Notes under the pieces: model-generated
The model's database searches: none
Seen by the model: only the letters and a program-made list of their open reading frames with translations
What the model was told of the DNA's origin: nothing
In this document: positions 3,716 through 38,442 of the stretch, one piece after another
Numbering within the stretch: the stretch's first letter is position 1
Layout: the number at the start of each line of letters is the position of its first letter
Assembly: GCA_945965395.1 (NCBI GenBank)
Contig: CAMFND010000107.1
Coordinates: forward strand, 1 to 61,542
Reading direction: 5' to 3'
Length of the DNA stretch: 61,542 nucleotides
Source of the DNA: an uncultured Bacteroides sp.
GTDB lineage: Bacteria; Bacteroidota; Bacteroidia; Bacteroidales; Bacteroidaceae
Made by a program: the position numbers and the translations under genes

Positions 3716-3801
3716 AGTACTTCTTTGGCAGTACTCCAGTACTTCCTTGAAAGTACTAAAGTACTGCTTAGGGAGTACTGCAGTACTGGCCTGAAAGTAC
3801 T
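3716..3801. repeat. 22-bp palindrome array with AGTACT half-sites
   Basis: Eight copies of AGTACT start at 3716, 3730, 3738, 3752, 3760, 3774, 3782 and 3796, with spacing alternating exactly 14 and 8. Read in phase, this is a half-site, then three 14-bp palindromes (AGTACT-2-AGTACT), then a half-site, separated by four 8-bp spacers (TCTTTGGC, TCCTTGAA, GCTTAGGG, GGCCTGAA). Each AGTACT-8-AGTACT segment can also form a 6-bp hairpin. The array lies between two convergent genes and accounts for much of the 323-base gene-free stretch 3592-3914, with terminators on either side. The same geometry recurs at 16048-16138 and 37661-37750. Confidence 0.9.
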
Positions 3802-9004: not shown

Positions 9005-10300
9005 TTATTTCAGTCCGAAAGCTTCTTTCACTTTGTCTGCATAGTCCAGTTTTTCCCAGGTGAAGAGTTCCACTTCTACGTCCTTATTGCCTTCGTAAGC
9101 CGATTCGAAATGTTTGGTAACGATTTGCGGTTCGCGGCCCATGTGTCCGTAAGCAGCAGTTTCGCTATAAATCGGGTTGCGCAGTTTCAAGCGTTCTTCG
9201 ATGGCACGCGGACGCATATCGAAGATTTCATCCACTTTCTTAGCAATTTCTCCGTCGGTCAAAGCTACATTGCTACGTCCGTAAGTATTTACGTAGATAT
9301 TGATCGGACGTGCCACTCCGATGGCGTATGAAACCTGTACCAATATTTCGTCTGCTACTCCGGCAGCTACCAGGTTTTTGGCAATGTGGCGTGCAGCGTA
9401 TGCAGCACTACGGTCTACCTTGCTGGGGTCTTTTCCTGAGAAAGCACCTCCTCCGTGAGCTCCGGCACCACCGTAAGTGTCTACAATAATCTTACGACCA
9501 GTCAGTCCGGTATCACCGTGAGGACCACCAATCACGAACTTACCTGTCGGGTTTACGTGGTATTTAATCTGGTCGTTGAATAAAGCCAGTACCTGCGGGT
9601 TGTGGATTTCGGCAATAACACGCGGCATCAGGGTTTCAATTACGTCCTTGCGAATCTGTGCCAGCATTTCTTCATCTGCCTTTAATTGAGCTTCTTTTGA
9701 GTCATTTTCCGGCTGGATAAATTCATCGTGCTGGGTAGATACTACGATGGTATCAATACGTACCGGACGACGGTTGTCATCGTATTCGATAGTTACCTGG
9801 CTCTTAGAGTCCGGACGAAGGTAAGTCATTACTTTTCCTTCACGACGGATGTCGGCCAATACCATCAGCAGCTTGTGTGCCAGGTCGAGCGACAACGGCA
9901 TGTAGTTTTCAGTTTCGTTGGTAGCATAACCAAACATCATACCCTGGTCGCCTGCTCCCTGATTCATCGGGTCTTCGCGTTCTACTCCACGGTTGATGTC
10001 AGGGCTCTGTTCGTGAATGGCTGAGAATACACCGCATGAATTACCTTCGAACATGTATTCGCTCTTGGTATAGCCTATCTTATTAATTACTTCGCGTGCT
10101 ACGCGCTGCAAATCAATATACGCTTTGGTTTTCACTTCTCCTGCCAGTACCACCTGTCCGGTAGTTACCAGAGTTTCGCAAGCTACTTTTGAACTGGGGT
10201 CGTAAGCCAACAGTTTGTCAAGCACAGCGTCCGAAATTTGATCGGCCACTTTGTCGGGGTGTCCTTCAGACACCGATTCGGATGTGAATAAGTATCCCAT
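9005..10300 (-). CDS. metK: S-adenosylmethionine synthetase
   Basis: A 431-residue enzyme making S-adenosylmethionine from methionine and ATP. Diagnostic segments are [21 protein letters not shown] (residues 8-28, ATP and metal binding), [12 protein letters not shown], and the P-loop-like [22 protein letters not shown]. The protein is longer than the typical 380-400 residues and contains an insert around residues 200-225 ([20 protein letters not shown]). It is a single gene with its own promoter, a riboswitch-bearing leader of about 140 bases and its own terminator. Confidence 0.97.
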
Positions 10301-10385
10301 TGTTGTGGTAAATTAAAATTGTTAATGGTTTGTTTTTATCCGTGTACGGACAGAGTAGAGAAGTAATCTTCGGGGAAATAACAAT

Positions 10386-10437
10386 GTGTTTTAGCATTTT
10401 TTTCCGTGGTTGCAAGCTACTCAAATCTTTCCACTTT
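10386..10437 (-). promoter_or_regulatory. SAM-II/SAM-V-type riboswitch in the metK leader
   Basis: On the minus strand the leader contains, in order, GTGG, GATTTGA, GTAGC, TTGCAA, CCACG, an A-rich linker and TGCTAAAAC. This is the conserved core of SAM-II-class aptamers (GAUUUAA ... UUGCAA ... GCUAAAA). P1 is GTGG (10431-10434) with CCAC (10406-10409). The loop sequence TAGC (10416-10419) can pair with downstream GCTA (10392-10395) to make the H-type pseudoknot. It lies about 12 bases after the -7 box and about 85 bases before the ATG. Gene context (metK) agrees with SAM feedback. Confidence 0.85.
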
Positions 10438-10448
10438 TATTTTCGCTG

Positions 10449-15805: not shown

Positions 15806-16006
15806 ATGGAGAAAAAGAGATTGACACGGTCAAACAATCGTATGATAGGTGGGGTTTGTGCTGGGATAGCCGATTATTTTGAATGGGATATTACTTTGGT
15901 GCGTATTATTTACGTGCTGGTTACATTTTTTACAGCTTTTTCCGGTGGACTGGTTTATTTGATTCTTTGGCTGGTCATGCCGGAAGCCAGAAGAGAAAGT
16001 AATTAA
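15806..16006 (+). CDS. PspC-domain membrane protein
   Basis: A 66-residue protein consisting only of a PspC domain. The signature RLTRSNNRMIGGVCAGIADYF is followed by the hydrophobic helix VYLILWLVMPEARR. In enteric bacteria PspC is an inner-membrane sensor of envelope stress. Stand-alone copies are common in Bacteroidetes and their role is not established. It is a single gene, divergent from the methyltransferase cluster and convergent with miaB. Confidence 0.88.
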   Translation: MEKKRLTRSNNRMIGGVCAGIADYFEWDITLVRIIYVLVTFFTAFSGGLVYLILWLVMPEARRESN

Positions 16007-16047: not shown

Positions 16048-16138
16048 TAGGTTCTCCTCACGCGAAACATACGTTTTGCGGAGCGGAAACCTACGTTTCG
16101 CACACCGGAAACGTAGGTTTCTGCCTTGTGAAACGTAA
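16048..16138. repeat. 22-bp palindrome array with GAAAC/GTTTC half-sites
   Basis: GAAAC occurs at 16064, 16086, 16108 and 16130, exactly every 22 bases. The array reads: half-site TAGGTTCT, spacer CCTCACGC, GAAACATACGTTTT, GCGGAGCG, GAAACCTACGTTTC, GCACACCG, GAAACGTAGGTTTC, TGCCTTGT, half-site GAAACGTA. So there are three 14-bp palindromes, four 8-bp spacers, and a half-site at each end, as in the AGTACT array. One segment can fold as a 10-bp stem (CCTACGTTTC / GAAACGTAGG) with an 8-base loop. It lies between the convergent pspC-like and miaB genes. Confidence 0.9.
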
Positions 16139-16180
16139 AAAACCTGCAAGCATCCTGAAAAAGATGTCTGCAGGTTTTTA
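16137..16180. terminator. Bidirectional terminator between the pspC-like gene and miaB
   Basis: Arms AAAAACCTGCA and TGCAGGTTTTT, with additional CATC/GATG pairing inside. A-rich and T-rich flanks on each side suit both convergent transcripts. Confidence 0.75.
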
Positions 16181-16211: not shown

Positions 16212-17585
16212 TTATTCGGTTACTTCTGTGCCTTTCAGAGTAGCAGAGCTTGATTCCGTGATTTTTACTTTCACAAAATCACCGATGCGGTGGCTGCCAC
16301 GATCAAAGACTACTACTTTGTTTTGTTCCGTACGACCGAACAGCTGTTCTTTAGAGCGTTTGGATACGCCTTCTACCAATACTTCGAAAGTTTTTCCTAC
16401 ATCTTTGGCATTACTTTCGGCAGAAAGCTGGTTCTGCAGTTCAATCATTTCATTTAGTCGACGGATTTTGATTTCTTCGGGCACGTCGTCCGGAAGATGT
16501 TTGGAAGCGTATGTCCCCGGTCGTTCAGAATATTTGAACATGAAAGCCGAGTCGTACGCACATTCGCGCATCAGCGACAAGGACATCTGATGGTCTTCTT
16601 CTGTTTCAGAATGGAAGCCCGAGAAAATATCGGTACTGAGTCCGCAGTCGGGGATGATTCTCCGGATAGCGGCTACTCTTTCCAGGTACCATTCGCGGGT
16701 ATATTTACGGTTCATCAGTTTCAGGATGCGTGAACTTCCGCTCTGTACGGGCAGGTGGATGTGCTTGCATACATTGGGCACTTCTGCAATGACATGAAGC
16801 GTTTCGTCACTCATGTCTTTGGGGTGTGAAGTGGTGAAACGTACGCGCATGTCGGGCACTGCTTCGGCTACGATACGGAGCAGCATGGGGAAGGTCACTG
16901 TCTGACCGTCTTTTTCAAAACGGTATGAGTTGACGTTCTGTCCCAACAGGGTTACTTCCTTATAACCTTTTCGTTGCAGGTCGCGTACTTCGTTCAGGAT
17001 ACTTTCCACGTCACGGCTGCGTTCACGTCCGCGTGTATAAGGTACAATACAGTAATGGCAGAAATTGTTACATCCTCGCATGATGGAAACGAAGCCTGAA
17101 ATATGGTTTCCGCAAATACGTGAAGGAATCACGTCACGGTAAGTTTCCGTAGTAGAAAGTTCCACATTGATGGCTTTTTCTCCTGCTTCTACGGCTGCAA
17201 TCAGGTCGGGTAAGGTCAGGTAGGCATCCGGACCGGCTACTAAGTCTACATGATGTTTTTCAATCAGTTCGTTTTTCACTCGTTCGGCCATACATCCCAA
17301 TACGCCCACAATCAGATGTTTCCGCTTTTTGCGTAAAGAATGGAAAAACTCCAGTCGGTTCAGGATTTTCTGTTCCGCATTGTCGCGGATGGAGCAGGTG
17401 TTCATGAACACGGCATCGGCCTCCTCTAAAGTGTCACAAGGAGAATATCCGGCCATTTGCATGATAGATGCAATTACTTCACTGTCTGCCACATTCATCT
17501 GGCATCCGTAGGTCTCGATAAACAATTTCTTGCTTTCGTTTTCAGTTGCAGATTTAAAGTCTGCTCCTGTAGCTTCTTTTGTCAT
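16212..17585 (-). CDS. miaB: tRNA-2-methylthio-N6-dimethylallyladenosine synthase
   Basis: A 457-residue radical-SAM methylthiotransferase acting on i6A37 of tRNAs. The N-terminal domain supplies cysteines for the auxiliary [4Fe-4S] cluster (TYGCQMN, Cys28; MNTCSIRD; VLGCMAERV). The radical-SAM motif CNNFCHYC is present in MRGCNNFCHYCIVPYTRG. A C-terminal TRAM domain (about residues 385-450) binds RNA. All key cysteines are intact. It is a single gene with a -7 box at 17614-17621. Confidence 0.96.
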   Translation of the reverse strand: MTKEATGADFKSATENESKKLFIETYGCQMNVADSEVIASIMQMAGYSPCDTLEEADAVFMNTCSIRDNAEQKILNRLEFFHSLRKKRKHLIVGVLGCMAERVKNELIEKHHVDLVAGPDAYLTLPDLIAAVEAGEKAINVELSTTETYRDVIPSRICGNHISGFVSIMRGCNNFCHYCIVPYTRGRERSRDVESILNEVRDLQRKGYKEVTLLGQNVNSYRFEKDGQTVTFPMLLRIVAEAVPDMRVRFTTSHPKDMSDETLHVIAEVPNVCKHIHLPVQSGSSRILKLMNRKYTREWYLERVAAIRRIIPDCGLSTDIFSGFHSETEEDHQMSLSLMRECAYDSAFMFKYSERPGTYASKHLPDDVPEEIKIRRLNEMIELQNQLSAESNAKDVGKTFEVLVEGVSKRSKEQLFGRTEQNKVVVFDRGSHRIGDFVKVKITESSSATLKGTEVTE

Positions 17586-35116: not shown

Positions 35117-36607
35117 ATGAAACCACTCTATATTTATTTTCTTGCTGCCTCACTGGCATGTACCTCTTGTTCGGACGGCTGGCTGGACCTGAATCCGTCC
35201 ACATCCGTACCCACCGACCAGGCTTTCTCTTCTTTGGAAGATGCCCAAAGCGCATTAAACGGCATTTATCGATTGGCGTCAGCGCATAGTTATTATGGTG
35301 ACAACTTCTTTTATTTTGGTGACTGTCGTGCTGCGGACGTGCAGGCTCGTATGACCAAGGGAGACGGACGCAGGGTTTCACCTTATTATGAGTATAATGT
35401 GAAGGCTACTGACAGCTTTAATTCAAGTTTGCCGTGGAATCAGGTCTATAAAGTGATTCGACAAACTAACAATCTGATAGCCGCCATTGAAAACGGGCAG
35501 GTACACACTACTGACGAGAAGTCGCTGAATGAAATCAAGTCCCAGGCACTAGCTATGCGAGGGTTAGCCTTGTACGATCTGATACGCGTGTTTGCCATGC
35601 CCTATTCGTATGATAACGGCCAGTCATTAGGGGTGCCTATTGTTATAACAGCCACTGATCAGTCTTCGAAGCCGGCACGAAATACGGTGGCCGAATGCTA
35701 CGACCAGATTATTACCGACCTGACCAATTCGCTGGTCGGTCTTAGCAAGGAGAAGAAAGACGGCTGCCTGAACTACTGGGCCGTGCAGGGTATTCTGTCA
35801 AGAGTTTATTTGAACAAGCTGGATTATCCGAATGCCTACAAGGCAGCTACAGATGTCATCGAAAATAGTAAAAGCCTGTATCAGTTGTATACCCTCGACG
35901 AGTACTCCACCGTCTGGGGAAAGGAATATACCAGTGAGTCGCTTTTCGAGTTCTACTTCTCGCTGACGGAACCCTCCGGTGGTTCGGGTGGAGAAGGAGC
36001 TCCTATGGTCTATGCCAATGAAGAAAAAGTGGACTGGAACAACCTGATACTGTCGGAAGACTACCTGAACCTACTGGATGAAGACCCGCAAGATGTGCGC
36101 CACAGTGTGATGCAGGTGTCTGCCATCGCCAATAACACCGACCTTCCCGAAGGTGCCCGTGACAAGAAAGTCTATCTGGCCAAGTTTCCCGGCAAAACCG
36201 CTGATCCGCGTGACAACAACCTGTGCATCGTGCGTCTGTCGGAAATCTACCTGAATGCAGCCGAAGCAGGCCTGAAAATAGGAGGCGAGCAGGCGAACAA
36301 GGGAATGGAATACCTGAACGAAGTGATTACCCACCGTACCACAAATACCGCCATGAAGGTAAATGCCACTGCCGATTTCACTCTGGAGCGCATTCTGCAA
36401 GAAAGAAGAAAGGAACTGGTGGGCGAGGGGCTGGCAGTGTACGATTATACGCGTAATAAATTGCCTGTGCTGCGTAAGGGAAGCTGGCACTTGAGTTCGC
36501 TGGAGACTTCCGGTGCCTATACCATCCAGCCGAATGATTCACGTCTGGCCGTCCCTATTCCGCAGACCGAGATAGATGCTAATCCTAATTTGGTGCAGAA
36601 TCCTTAG
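35117..36607 (+). CDS. SusD/RagB-type surface glycan-binding lipoprotein
   Basis: A 496-residue lipoprotein: signal MKPLYIYFLAASLACTSC, then mature N-terminus CSDGWLDLNPSTS, with the SDG-type acidic start expected of surface-exported lipoproteins. TPR-like helices and the family segments NNLIAAIENG, EIKSQALAMRGLALYDLIRVFA, and ILQERRKELVGEG are present. It caps the SusC barrel and binds ligand. The length is at the short end of the family. No surface glycan-binding protein or hydrolase follows, so this is a bare SusCD pair. Its 3' end overlaps the convergent regulator gene by 23 bases. Confidence 0.94.
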   Translation: MKPLYIYFLAASLACTSCSDGWLDLNPSTSVPTDQAFSSLEDAQSALNGIYRLASAHSYYGDNFFYFGDCRAADVQARMTKGDGRRVSPYYEYNVKATDSFNSSLPWNQVYKVIRQTNNLIAAIENGQVHTTDEKSLNEIKSQALAMRGLALYDLIRVFAMPYSYDNGQSLGVPIVITATDQSSKPARNTVAECYDQIITDLTNSLVGLSKEKKDGCLNYWAVQGILSRVYLNKLDYPNAYKAATDVIENSKSLYQLYTLDEYSTVWGKEYTSESLFEFYFSLTEPSGGSGGEGAPMVYANEEKVDWNNLILSEDYLNLLDEDPQDVRHSVMQVSAIANNTDLPEGARDKKVYLAKFPGKTADPRDNNLCIVRLSEIYLNAAEAGLKIGGEQANKGMEYLNEVITHRTTNTAMKVNATADFTLERILQERRKELVGEGLAVYDYTRNKLPVLRKGSWHLSSLETSGAYTIQPNDSRLAVPIPQTEIDANPNLVQNP

Positions 36608-37571
36608 TAGAGGCAGCAGTCAGATAATATCCCCGTCCTTTGACGGTAGAAATCCGATAATCCGGGAAGTCTTGCAGGACTTTCCGGATTGTTTGTATGT
36701 GCGTGTCTAATTTCTCATCCGCCTGCGGGTCGTGCGGCCAGCAAGTCGTTTTCAAGTCTTCACGGTTCACACATTCTCCTTTCTTTTCCCATAGCAGGTA
36801 AAGGAGCTGTAAGTCGAGGCTGGAAATGGCACACTGTATGCCGTCAATCAGCAATATCTGCTGCTTCAGGTCGATGTACAGCCCTTTTTCAGGCTTATTT
36901 CGCCGTTTTTTCAGGTAAAGGCAGACTTGTATACCTGTGGCAGCGAGCAGCAGGCACAGCAGCCCGTAAAAGCCCGCATGGATATAGCGGAGTAAAGTCA
37001 GCAAGTCGTAGTCAGCCCACCCTTGCAGTTGCAGGCTGTGAGTCAGGTCGAGCGAGTAGACCGGAGTCTTATAGGCTGAGGACGTGGGTAAGATGCCTGC
37101 CCGTGTGCGGGTGCGAGCCGACTTGTCGGAATAAAACACACCTGCCGTTCCGCTGACATGTTTTTTTTCGAGCTGTTCCTGAAACAACCGGTTCACTTCC
37201 TCCACCTTGACAGGCTGTATGTCTGCCAGCAGGTATTCGTTCAGCAGTTTCCGGGCTTTCTCTTCCGGGATACTGTCCTTGAACAGGTAAGTGGTTTTTT
37301 CTTCTGTGGTCTGAAGCGTATAGCTTTTGATTTTCCGGCTGGAGACGGGCGCGAAAAGATAAGCCTTTATGGCTGGGTCTACGTAGATGTGCGGGTTCTT
37401 GCTGAACGCATTCAGACGGTCGTTGTAGTGAAGGCGTTCGGCTTCCTGCAAGGATTGATTGATGAGGGCATGCACCTGTGTCCGGCTATGCCGCAGTGCC
37501 ACGTAACCGCCACCCATGAGTACGATGACAGTGGCGGCTACAGACAGGAACCAGCTTGTTCTTTTTGTCAT
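36585..37571 (-). CDS. Transmembrane winged-helix transcription regulator
   Basis: A 328-residue protein with a helix at about residues 7-26, a periplasmic region of about 170 residues, a second helix (about 198-219, FYGLLCLLLAATGIQVCLYL), a basic stop (KKRRNK) and a cytoplasmic C-terminal domain (about 225-315). That domain ends in STVKGRGYYL, the wing of OmpR/PhoB-type DNA-binding domains, preceded by the recognition helix region KLDTHIQTIRKVL. There is no receiver or kinase domain, so it looks like a one-component membrane regulator. I use the ATG at 37571; an ATG at 37625 lies upstream of the putative -7 box. Target is inferred to be the adjacent susCD. Confidence 0.82.
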   Translation of the reverse strand: MTKRTSWFLSVAATVIVLMGGGYVALRHSRTQVHALINQSLQEAERLHYNDRLNAFSKNPHIYVDPAIKAYLFAPVSSRKIKSYTLQTTEEKTTYLFKDSIPEEKARKLLNEYLLADIQPVKVEEVNRLFQEQLEKKHVSGTAGVFYSDKSARTRTRAGILPTSSAYKTPVYSLDLTHSLQLQGWADYDLLTLLRYIHAGFYGLLCLLLAATGIQVCLYLKKRRNKPEKGLYIDLKQQILLIDGIQCAISSLDLQLLYLLWEKKGECVNREDLKTTCWPHDPQADEKLDTHIQTIRKVLQDFPDYRISTVKGRGYYLTAASTKDSAPN

Positions 37572-37589
37572 AACGATATTCTTTAGAAG

Positions 37590-37620
37590 CAAATTAAGCC
37601 ACAAAAAGCGGGAAGTCAAA
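37590..37620 (-). promoter_or_regulatory. Putative promoter of the transmembrane regulator
   Basis: On the minus strand TTTG (37617-37620) is followed after 20 bp by TAATTTG (37590-37596), one base short of the -7 consensus. It supports a start at 37571. Confidence 0.45.
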
Positions 37621-37660
37621 AACATTATTGTATAGATATAGGGGTGTGCTTGTATGTTTT

Positions 37661-37750
37661 AGGTTTTCTGTGCGGAATCCTTATGTTTCCCGGCCCCGAA
37701 CTGTAGGTTTCTCTTGTGGGAAACGTAGGGTTCCGCCGTGGGAAACGTAG
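37661..37750. repeat. 22-bp palindrome array (third copy)
   Basis: The order is half-site AGGTTTT, 7-bp spacer CTGTGCG, a 15-bp imperfect palindrome starting GAATC and ending GTTTC, spacer CCGGCCCC, GAACTGTAGGTTTC, TCTTGTGG, GAAACGTAGGGTTC, CGCCGTGG, half-site GAAACGTAG. The unit starts are 37675, 37698, 37720 and 37742, that is 23, 22 and 22 bases apart. It again has three palindromes, four spacers and a half-site at each end. A degenerate copy (GAACCCTGCGTTTT at 37755) adjoins. It lies between the 3' end of the CAT-like gene and the promoter of the regulator. Confidence 0.85.
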
Positions 37751-37791: not shown

Positions 37792-38442
37792 TTATCTTTC
37801 CTTCAGGTACTTCTCTACTTTCTCGAAGAATAGTGAGATGTGCGCTCCGTCTACAAAGGCATGGCTTACGGTCAGTGCAATGGGCATGACCAGCTTTCCT
37901 TCACGTGTCACTGCTTTGCCTGCATTCATCAGCGGATAGTCCAGAGGATGGCCCGGGGCATACTGCGTGTAAGAGATGGAGGTAAAGTACAGCTTGGGAG
38001 TGGCACTGAGCAGGATGACATCAAAATCGCCCTGAGCTGCAATCGCCTTGTCGGTGCCGTACGGGTCTCCGTCCTCCGGGATAGAGGTGATGATGCGCCG
38101 GGCTTCCTCGTAGAAAGCCTTGAAATCACTGTTCCAGGGAATGCGAACCGTGTAGAACGTCTTTCCCGGCACGGCGATGGGCGTCGTGATGTCTACCGTA
38201 TCGTGGTAAACCACCTGCCCGTGTTTGTCCCACCGGTAACGGAATTCCTTGATTTCATTTGCCGCACGAAGTATGGCGTACAGGTAATACAGAAAGAAGG
38301 AACGGCCCTGTGCCTTTGCTTCCGCATACGCCTCCGTGCAGTCCACTTCGCTGGTCATGGCAATCCAGGAATTATGGAAATCGCGGAAGAAAAGATAGTT
38401 GTCCTTCCGCTCCCAGGTGTCAATATCGATAAGATGTTTCAT
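37792..38442 (-). CDS. Chloramphenicol acetyltransferase-like protein
   Basis: A 216-residue protein of the CAT fold, which acetylates small molecules with acetyl-CoA as a trimer. The catalytic motif HAFVDG (in [16 protein letters not shown]) keeps the His and Asp of true CATs. The hydrophobic [16 protein letters not shown] and [10 protein letters not shown] segments also fit. Chromosomal CAT-like proteins in Bacteroidales often have no proven resistance role, so the substrate is open. Its ATG overlaps the stop of the upstream reductase gene by 4 bases, indicating coupled translation. Confidence 0.85.

Follow-up and report, generated by a model that had tools for sequence, protein, structure and literature searches.

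Iterons and other phased operator arrays consist of tandem binding sites about two helical turns apart, and a layout of inverted arms with an 8-bp asymmetric spacer between them is similar to the core sites of tyrosine recombinases. The hosts of the arrays described below belong to the same bacterial order as Porphyromonas gingivalis. In the available part of its published account, the BrickBuilt MITE/minisatellite of that species is made of intergenic 23-nt tandem units without spacers, with a leader and a tail that have inverted-repeat ends (PMC4596501). REP/BIME elements with their RAYT (IS200/IS605-like) transposases are, in the part of the account at hand, dispersed intergenic palindromes that are clustered, fall into several classes and are species-specific (PMC2817692). 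A search of the open-licence PMC literature by titles and abstract starts, a scope outside which most subscription papers lie, returned no description of the arrays reported here.

The focal array and its surroundings

The locus studied here lies in a window of 61,542 nucleotides, by which we mean the whole stretch of DNA that was analysed. The features are as follows, arrays and their parts being given without strand.

16051..16134: focal array, four GTTTC-N8-GAAAC units with a 22-bp period, read from the sequence
16051..16055: left outer half-site GTTCT, two mismatches to GTTTC
16056..16063: spacer 1, CCTCACGC
16064..16077: palindrome 1, GAAACATACGTTTT
16078..16085: spacer 2, GCGGAGCG
16086..16099: palindrome 2, GAAACCTACGTTTC
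16100..16107: spacer 3, GCACACCG
16108..16121: palindrome 3, GAAACGTAGGTTTC
16122..16129: spacer 4, TGCCTTGT
16130..16137: right outer half-site GAAACGTA, that is GAAAC(GTA), followed by an A tract
15806..16006, plus strand: pspC-like gene, left of the focal array (PF04024, 6.6e-26)
16138..16179, minus strand: inverted repeat with 17-nt arms (88%) and a T run at its end on this strand, separate from the array
16212..17585, minus strand: presumed miaB, right of the focal array, with orthologues in 25/25 same-genus genomes searched
3716..3801: AGTACT-class array with a 22-bp period, four units of AGTACT-N8-AGTACT joined by 2-bp linkers
37663..37746: second GAAAC-class array of the window (third array overall), with a degenerate first unit (GTTTT ctgtgcgg AATCC) and three good units

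The focal array is real and exceeds chance expectation. Its units carry, in order, 2, 1, 0 and 0 mismatches to GTTTC/GAAAC out of 10 positions each. In a self-consistency score over four units of 22 bp (35 comparisons), with the geometry fixed beforehand to that reported, it gave 7 mismatches, as did the GAAAC-class array at 37663-37746, and the AGTACT array gave 0; the lowest count in 40 first-order Markov simulations of the window was 12. The preliminary description had placed GAAAC at 16064, 16086, 16108 and 16130 with a period of exactly 22, which is borne out letter by letter, and had read the layout as a half-site, three 14-bp palindromes and a half-site with four 8-base spacers, which we confirm; its span of 16048-16138 is correct to within a few bases of the array proper.

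The gene on the right is presumably miaB, a name that rests on its sequence, and the inverted repeat directly beside the focal array looks like the intrinsic terminator of this gene. The AGTACT array lies between a peptidase S41/tricorn-like gene on the plus strand and a tyrosyl-tRNA synthetase gene on the minus strand, which converge upon it. The array at 37663-37746 is flanked by two minus-strand genes (36585-37625 and 37792-38442), which are a Trans_reg_C DNA-binding-domain gene and a gene of the Pfam CAT family of acetyltransferases. At the gathering threshold, Rfam had two matches in the window, a SAM-II riboswitch and a tRNA, and none in the arrays; the riboswitch (10381-10440, minus strand, 65.2 bits) lies upstream of an ORF at 9005-10300 on the same strand.

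Period, half-site classes and gene context

The window's own genome (G000; 3.72 Mb in 161 contigs, 94.3% complete) is that of one of three array-rich species, the others being G007 and G023. In G000, a GAAAC pattern of two units, allowing three mismatches at most, matched at 86 forward places and the AGTACT dyad at 55, and the reversed-pattern control gave 0 in both cases. A scan by geometry alone, which accepted any 5-bp arm repeated in three units with a period between 14 and 60, covered 730 kb of G000 and yielded 46 arrays, 44 of them at 22 bp, and the period was 22 bp in 23/23 arrays of G007 and 27/29 of G023; the stretches had been picked around AGTACT and GAAAC arrays, so that this share is partly by design for those classes, and periods other than 22 bp would still have shown in them. 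One block shuffle per sequence, scanned as a control, contained no array. Two further classes emerged from the scan, AAACG..CGTTT and, once, a CGACACG type. AGTACT, GAAAC and the third class, GCGTTT/AAACGC, are abundant in G000, and the third tops the match counts (142 in G000, 114 in G007 and 168 in G023, for two units and up to two mismatches), with two-unit matches also in G003 (74), G008 (32), G029 (7) and three other genomes (1-2 each). The fourth class is a lone 22-bp array in the window's own genome (L060:1594-1664, CGACACGTTCGTGTCG), and no second array of its kind was found in the sampled stretches.

GAAAC and AGTACT matches were each found in 6 of the 60 genomes searched, one of the six being the window's own; the 24 genomes from other genera had none. 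The GAAAC pattern has few matches in G017 (3), G024 (2) and G035 (1), and those displayed for G017 and G024 have different palindrome centres. Relatives carry further half-sites at 22 bp (two kinds in G017, others in G011 and G024), G003 carries the third class, and G034 has AGTACT with other spacers. The 18 detections among 80 named Bacteroidales loci comprised 7 at 22 bp, 3 at 21 bp and 8 at other periods, some being simple repeats. The single detection in blind-chosen stretches of G011 was at 22 bp, as were 5/8 in G017 (ten stretches, three of them picked around matches) and 4/8 in 20 more stretches from relatives, three picked around pattern matches and scanned with no shuffled control. 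Palindrome arrays at 22 bp also occur elsewhere in Bacteroidales at L106:1856-1941 and L118:2205-2264, with GGGACT/AGTCCC and GCGTCGCAC-like half-sites. In IMG/VR, exact matching returned one contig for AGTACT (L273:2239-2280), which may be host DNA, and none for GAAAC. The proposal of a shared geometry with unrelated half-sites thus holds in the array-rich genomes, given the further classes and the dominance of 22 bp there (44/46, 23/23 and 27/29), whereas the period itself is found in only 7/18 detections at the more distant Bacteroidales loci.

Four units were called in 53/59 GAAAC and 30/32 AGTACT arrays; of the six GAAAC arrays called with three units, all but one carry a fourth, degenerate unit that departs from the pattern at 3-5 of its 10 positions (5 being marginal). 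The third class has 3-6 palindromes per array (10 arrays called, in which degenerate end units were possibly missed) and divides the 22 bp as 16+6, i.e. with 6-bp spacers. The identical copy number and 14+8 geometry described previously are therefore traits of the GAAAC and AGTACT classes that the third class does not share, 14+8 being one partition of 22 bp. In our own reading, every unit in all four classes can be written as a 20-bp dyad with a 2-bp linker. Exact AGTACT pairs no more than 60 bp apart in the stretches sampled from G000, G007 and G023 follow the 2/8 alternation of a 22-bp lattice with two exceptions, a pair at 54 in G000 and another at 18 in G023, and isolated single dyads are nearly absent from these stretches. 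GTAG is present among the array linkers. Spacers of several classes (1-3) share CTT/AAG-containing cores, e.g. GCCAAGGA, CCTTACGC and GCACTTGC. Avoidance of AGTACT elsewhere in G000, also considered, proved mild and not special (70 occurrences vs 96 expected, 14th among the 64 hexamer palindromes; 9th in G007 and 21st in G023).

Gene context was scored with a crude codon-usage script, which missed pspC, so that the focal locus was labelled tandem, and possibly missed other short genes; on these calls, 31 AGTACT arrays (one more lies at a contig edge) fall in 16 convergent, 12 tandem and 3 divergent gaps, and 52 GAAAC arrays (seven more being unscored) in 11, 23 and 18, respectively, which is near the baseline of 63, 186 and 119 among 368 gaps. 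A cruder gene caller gave 13, 16 and 19 for GAAAC and 15, 13 and 2 for AGTACT. The placement between convergent genes noted in the preliminary description is correct for the two arrays that it named, and AGTACT arrays are enriched in such gaps, but it does not extend to the GAAAC class (11/52). In tandem gaps, AGTACT arrays do not follow the direction of transcription (6 with it, 5 against it). Weak orientation biases appear for GAAAC in tandem gaps (15 same, 5 opposite) and, relative to the nearer gene, in convergent gaps for both GAAAC (8 with, 3 against) and AGTACT (4 with, 11 against). A Pfam scan of 17 genes at or near arrays left two without a match and assigned mixed functions to the rest; no family recurs among these genes, and DNA-related domains occur in two of them (Trans_reg_C, by the third array of the window, and a UvrA-like domain).

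Conservation at orthologous loci and folding

Substitutions were counted in 21 orthologous pairs (15 GAAAC, 6 AGTACT) out of 30 found in the three species; some pairs rest on a match at a single flank, and some share an array, so they are not independent, and 5/30, with unequal called unit numbers, were omitted from the earlier arm and spacer counts. AGTACT arrays changed at 3/288 arm and 44/192 spacer positions, compared with 1307/3590 at fourfold sites and 238/1760 at alignable positions outside called genes; the corresponding GAAAC figures were 55/600, 192/480, 2336/7923 and 1076/6558, the outside-gene rates being those of alignable DNA and hinging on crude gene calls. The arms are conserved relative to spacers and neutral sites, strongly in AGTACT (1% changed) and moderately in GAAAC (9%), where they are only about twofold better kept than alignable sites outside called genes (9.2% vs 16.4%). 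Measured against fourfold sites, spacers change less in AGTACT and more in GAAAC, and the 20-bp flanks of the arrays, left and right together, differ at 123/240 (AGTACT) and 249/760 (GAAAC) positions. An AGTACC arm variant is retained in both members of 2/6 compared AGTACT pairs (L037/L222 and L046/L211), and such inherited variants speak against the view that the arms are alike through steady gene conversion.

At the focal locus, the array is present in all three species (beside miaB in G023) with different spacers in each. The AGTACT locus of the window is a contracted relic with decayed arms in G007 and only a fragment in G023. At L044, G023 retains a single unit with intact arms, and at L049 the array is present in G023 and absent in G007. 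At L047, G007 has no array and the aligned flanks of G023 are only about 80 bp apart, a site that is probably empty too. The array downstream of one gene is of class 2 in G023, whereas the same gene has one of class 3 in G000, and the remaining region differs. Class switching at one site was considered for the window array at 3716 with L215 and for L060/L206, and was rejected; in both cases the arrays lie on opposite sides of a shared gene.

Six strands were folded (five arrays, the focal one on both strands), and each beat its dinucleotide shuffles by a wide margin (z -3.6 to -9.8), as is unavoidable for a palindromic array. The focal array reached -43.7 on the plus strand and -32.6 on the minus strand, which is a single case. 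On each strand, AGTACT arrays fold worse than 30/30 spacer-permuted controls, which is evidence against an RNA element, and GAAAC arrays fold slightly better than theirs, both strands alike (0 and 1 of 30 permutations as good); neither class has an excess strand difference in folding, and no preference for structure on one strand over permuted controls was seen. Complementarity between mirror positions of GAAAC spacers is below expectation at positions 1-8, 2-7 and 3-6 and above it at 4-5 (96 vs 59.5), and in AGTACT spacers it is clearly below expectation at 1-8 and only slightly so at the other pairs. Spacer self-complementarity below expectation is what double-stranded sites that have to avoid forming long perfect palindromes would be expected to show, and the folding and spacer tests together fit such sites better than selected RNA. 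Adjacent spacers are less complementary than non-adjacent ones in both classes. In GAAAC arrays, spacers 1 and 3 are similar as reverse complements of each other, and so are spacers 2 and 4 (paired test p=3e-6), a resemblance that double-stranded sites leave unexplained. The 2-4 pairing looks strong if arrays are left unoriented, shrinks when they are oriented (p about 0.02-0.05, pooled pair counts) and persists as a consensus-level pattern. Kissing-loop or pseudoknot RNA (spacer 1 with 3, 2 with 4) found no support in the strand and folding tests; extended long hairpins with up to three mismatches were equally rejected, occurring in 2/53 GAAAC arrays for units 1-3 and 2/53 for units 2-4, with cross-array controls at 41/2756 and 38/2756. 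The balance of G-U against A-C arm variants between the strands is not significantly skewed in GAAAC (p 0.21 and 0.22), and in AGTACT its direction in tandem gaps is opposite to that in convergent gaps.

Competing explanations and known systems

The arrays are probably docking rows for putative DNA-binding proteins. More specifically, we give about an even chance to their being phased binding-site arrays for putative class-specific dimeric proteins, which spread in an ancestor and are now kept by selection. Each 22-bp unit would offer a dyad of two 5-7 bp arms, and about four consecutive units would bring the dyads to almost the same side of the helix, because 22 bp is about two turns. A dimeric DNA-binding protein would bind such a row cooperatively and form a short nucleoprotein filament, each half-site class being served by its own, related protein. 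The arrays would have spread through intergenic DNA in the ancestor of the three species by some copying process and would now be immobile or nearly so, with the arms under selection, GAAAC spacers drifting and contracted arrays perhaps decaying. The likeliest effect of binding would be on local chromosome architecture or insulation between transcription units. The rigid lattice, arm conservation, inherited variants, relics, folding, the period common to the classes and the AGTACT orientation in tandem gaps all speak for binding arrays. The scarcity of single dyads, which a regulator would normally use as well, the lack of a recurring neighbour family, the weak orientation biases and the far lower conservation of GAAAC arms speak against them, and the GAAAC class, with its spacer 1/3 and 2/4 resemblance, slightly better folding and complementary central bases, fits poorly with a pure double-strand model.

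The arrays could instead be non-autonomous mobile repeats resembling REP/BIME elements or MITEs, mobilised in trans by a putative transposase, with one enzyme per class and the geometry as its substrate; we consider this possible, if rather unlikely. In G000 and its relatives, they are indeed dispersed, high-copy intergenic palindromes, with dozens of copies, several classes per genome and differences in presence between species, and so many loci require some copying process. Among the pairs listed, some within-genome copies align slightly past the array, up to 159 bp at 83% (L042/L045), and synteny breaks are somewhat more frequent at array gaps (21/83 vs 38/246 at other gaps, p=0.048, rows not independent). 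However, arrays at different loci of one genome are, among the pairs listed, only about 72-96% alike over about 44-159 bp, with different spacers, and the pair nearest to a recent copy (the GAAAC arrays L198/L204 in G007), the only near-identical one at unrelated loci among those listed, sits inside a longer shared segment of 541 bp; L207 of the same genome shares the array with this pair at 88%, plus other duplicated segments nearby. The arms are constrained at fixed orthologous loci, unlike dead copies, and at five empty or contracted sites, where flanks have diverged and intergenic DNA aligns poorly, no obvious target duplication is seen. Y1_Tnp/RAYT (PF01797) is absent from G000, G007 and G023, and a search of the window's own genome and eight relatives found it in G017 only, on which ground a RAYT link was rejected. 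A mobile origin followed by retention would reconcile mobile repeats with binding arrays.

That the transcribed arrays act as RNA, as strings of hairpins or one long hairpin stabilising or ending transcripts, seems to us improbable. The better-than-shuffle folding of all six strands, which palindromic arrays must show, is compatible with it, and AGTACT arrays avoid divergent gaps (3/31 vs 119/368) and are thus nearly all downstream of some gene; on the other side stand the poor folding of AGTACT arrays against permuted ones, the strand-neutral folding and arm variants, the 18/52 GAAAC arrays between divergent genes and the absence of an Rfam match at the gathering threshold. Site-specific recombination sites, with inverted arms around an 8-bp asymmetric spacer, are the explanation to which we give the least credence, and we consider them very improbable. 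The 8-bp spacers, their self-complementarity below expectation at most position pairs, the differences between neighbouring spacers and the weak excess of synteny breaks would suit them, but packing at 22 bp would leave little room for recombinase dimers on adjacent units, the third class has 6-bp spacers, and many orthologous alignments are collinear through the array.

More broadly, and on balance doubtfully, binding arrays could belong to a genome-wide Bacteroidales system, in which a fast-diverging putative DNA-binding family, with several members per genome that each have their own half-site, uses dozens to hundreds of 22-bp arrays to organise or insulate the chromosome, half-site and protein changing together between lineages and geometry being kept. 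A constant period over unrelated half-sites, with spacers free and arms held, suggests that what is shared is a physical scaffold and not the sequence itself, and the arrays offer a direct means of searching for architectural DNA-binding proteins of dominant gut bacteria.

With iterons, the arrays have in common tandem putative sites at about two-turn spacing; unlike iterons, they occur chromosome-wide in several half-site classes per genome, and there is no replication or partition gene among the 17 array-adjacent genes scanned. Like REP/BIME elements as outlined in the available part of their account, they are dispersed intergenic palindromes, clustered, of several classes and species-specific, but they differ from that outline in their fixed 22-bp period, nearly always with four units in two classes, in spacers that vary between copies and in the absence of Y1_Tnp from three array-rich genomes. 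The nearest printed element that we found, as far as the available part of its account goes, is BrickBuilt of P. gingivalis, with intergenic tandem units of nearly equal length (23 nt vs 22 bp here); it is set apart by its lack of spacers, since in our arrays only the arms repeat, the spacers vary and the units are not spacerless 23-mers. Dispersed palindromic repeats are already known, and what distinguishes those described here is a constant period that spans unrelated half-sites within and across related species.
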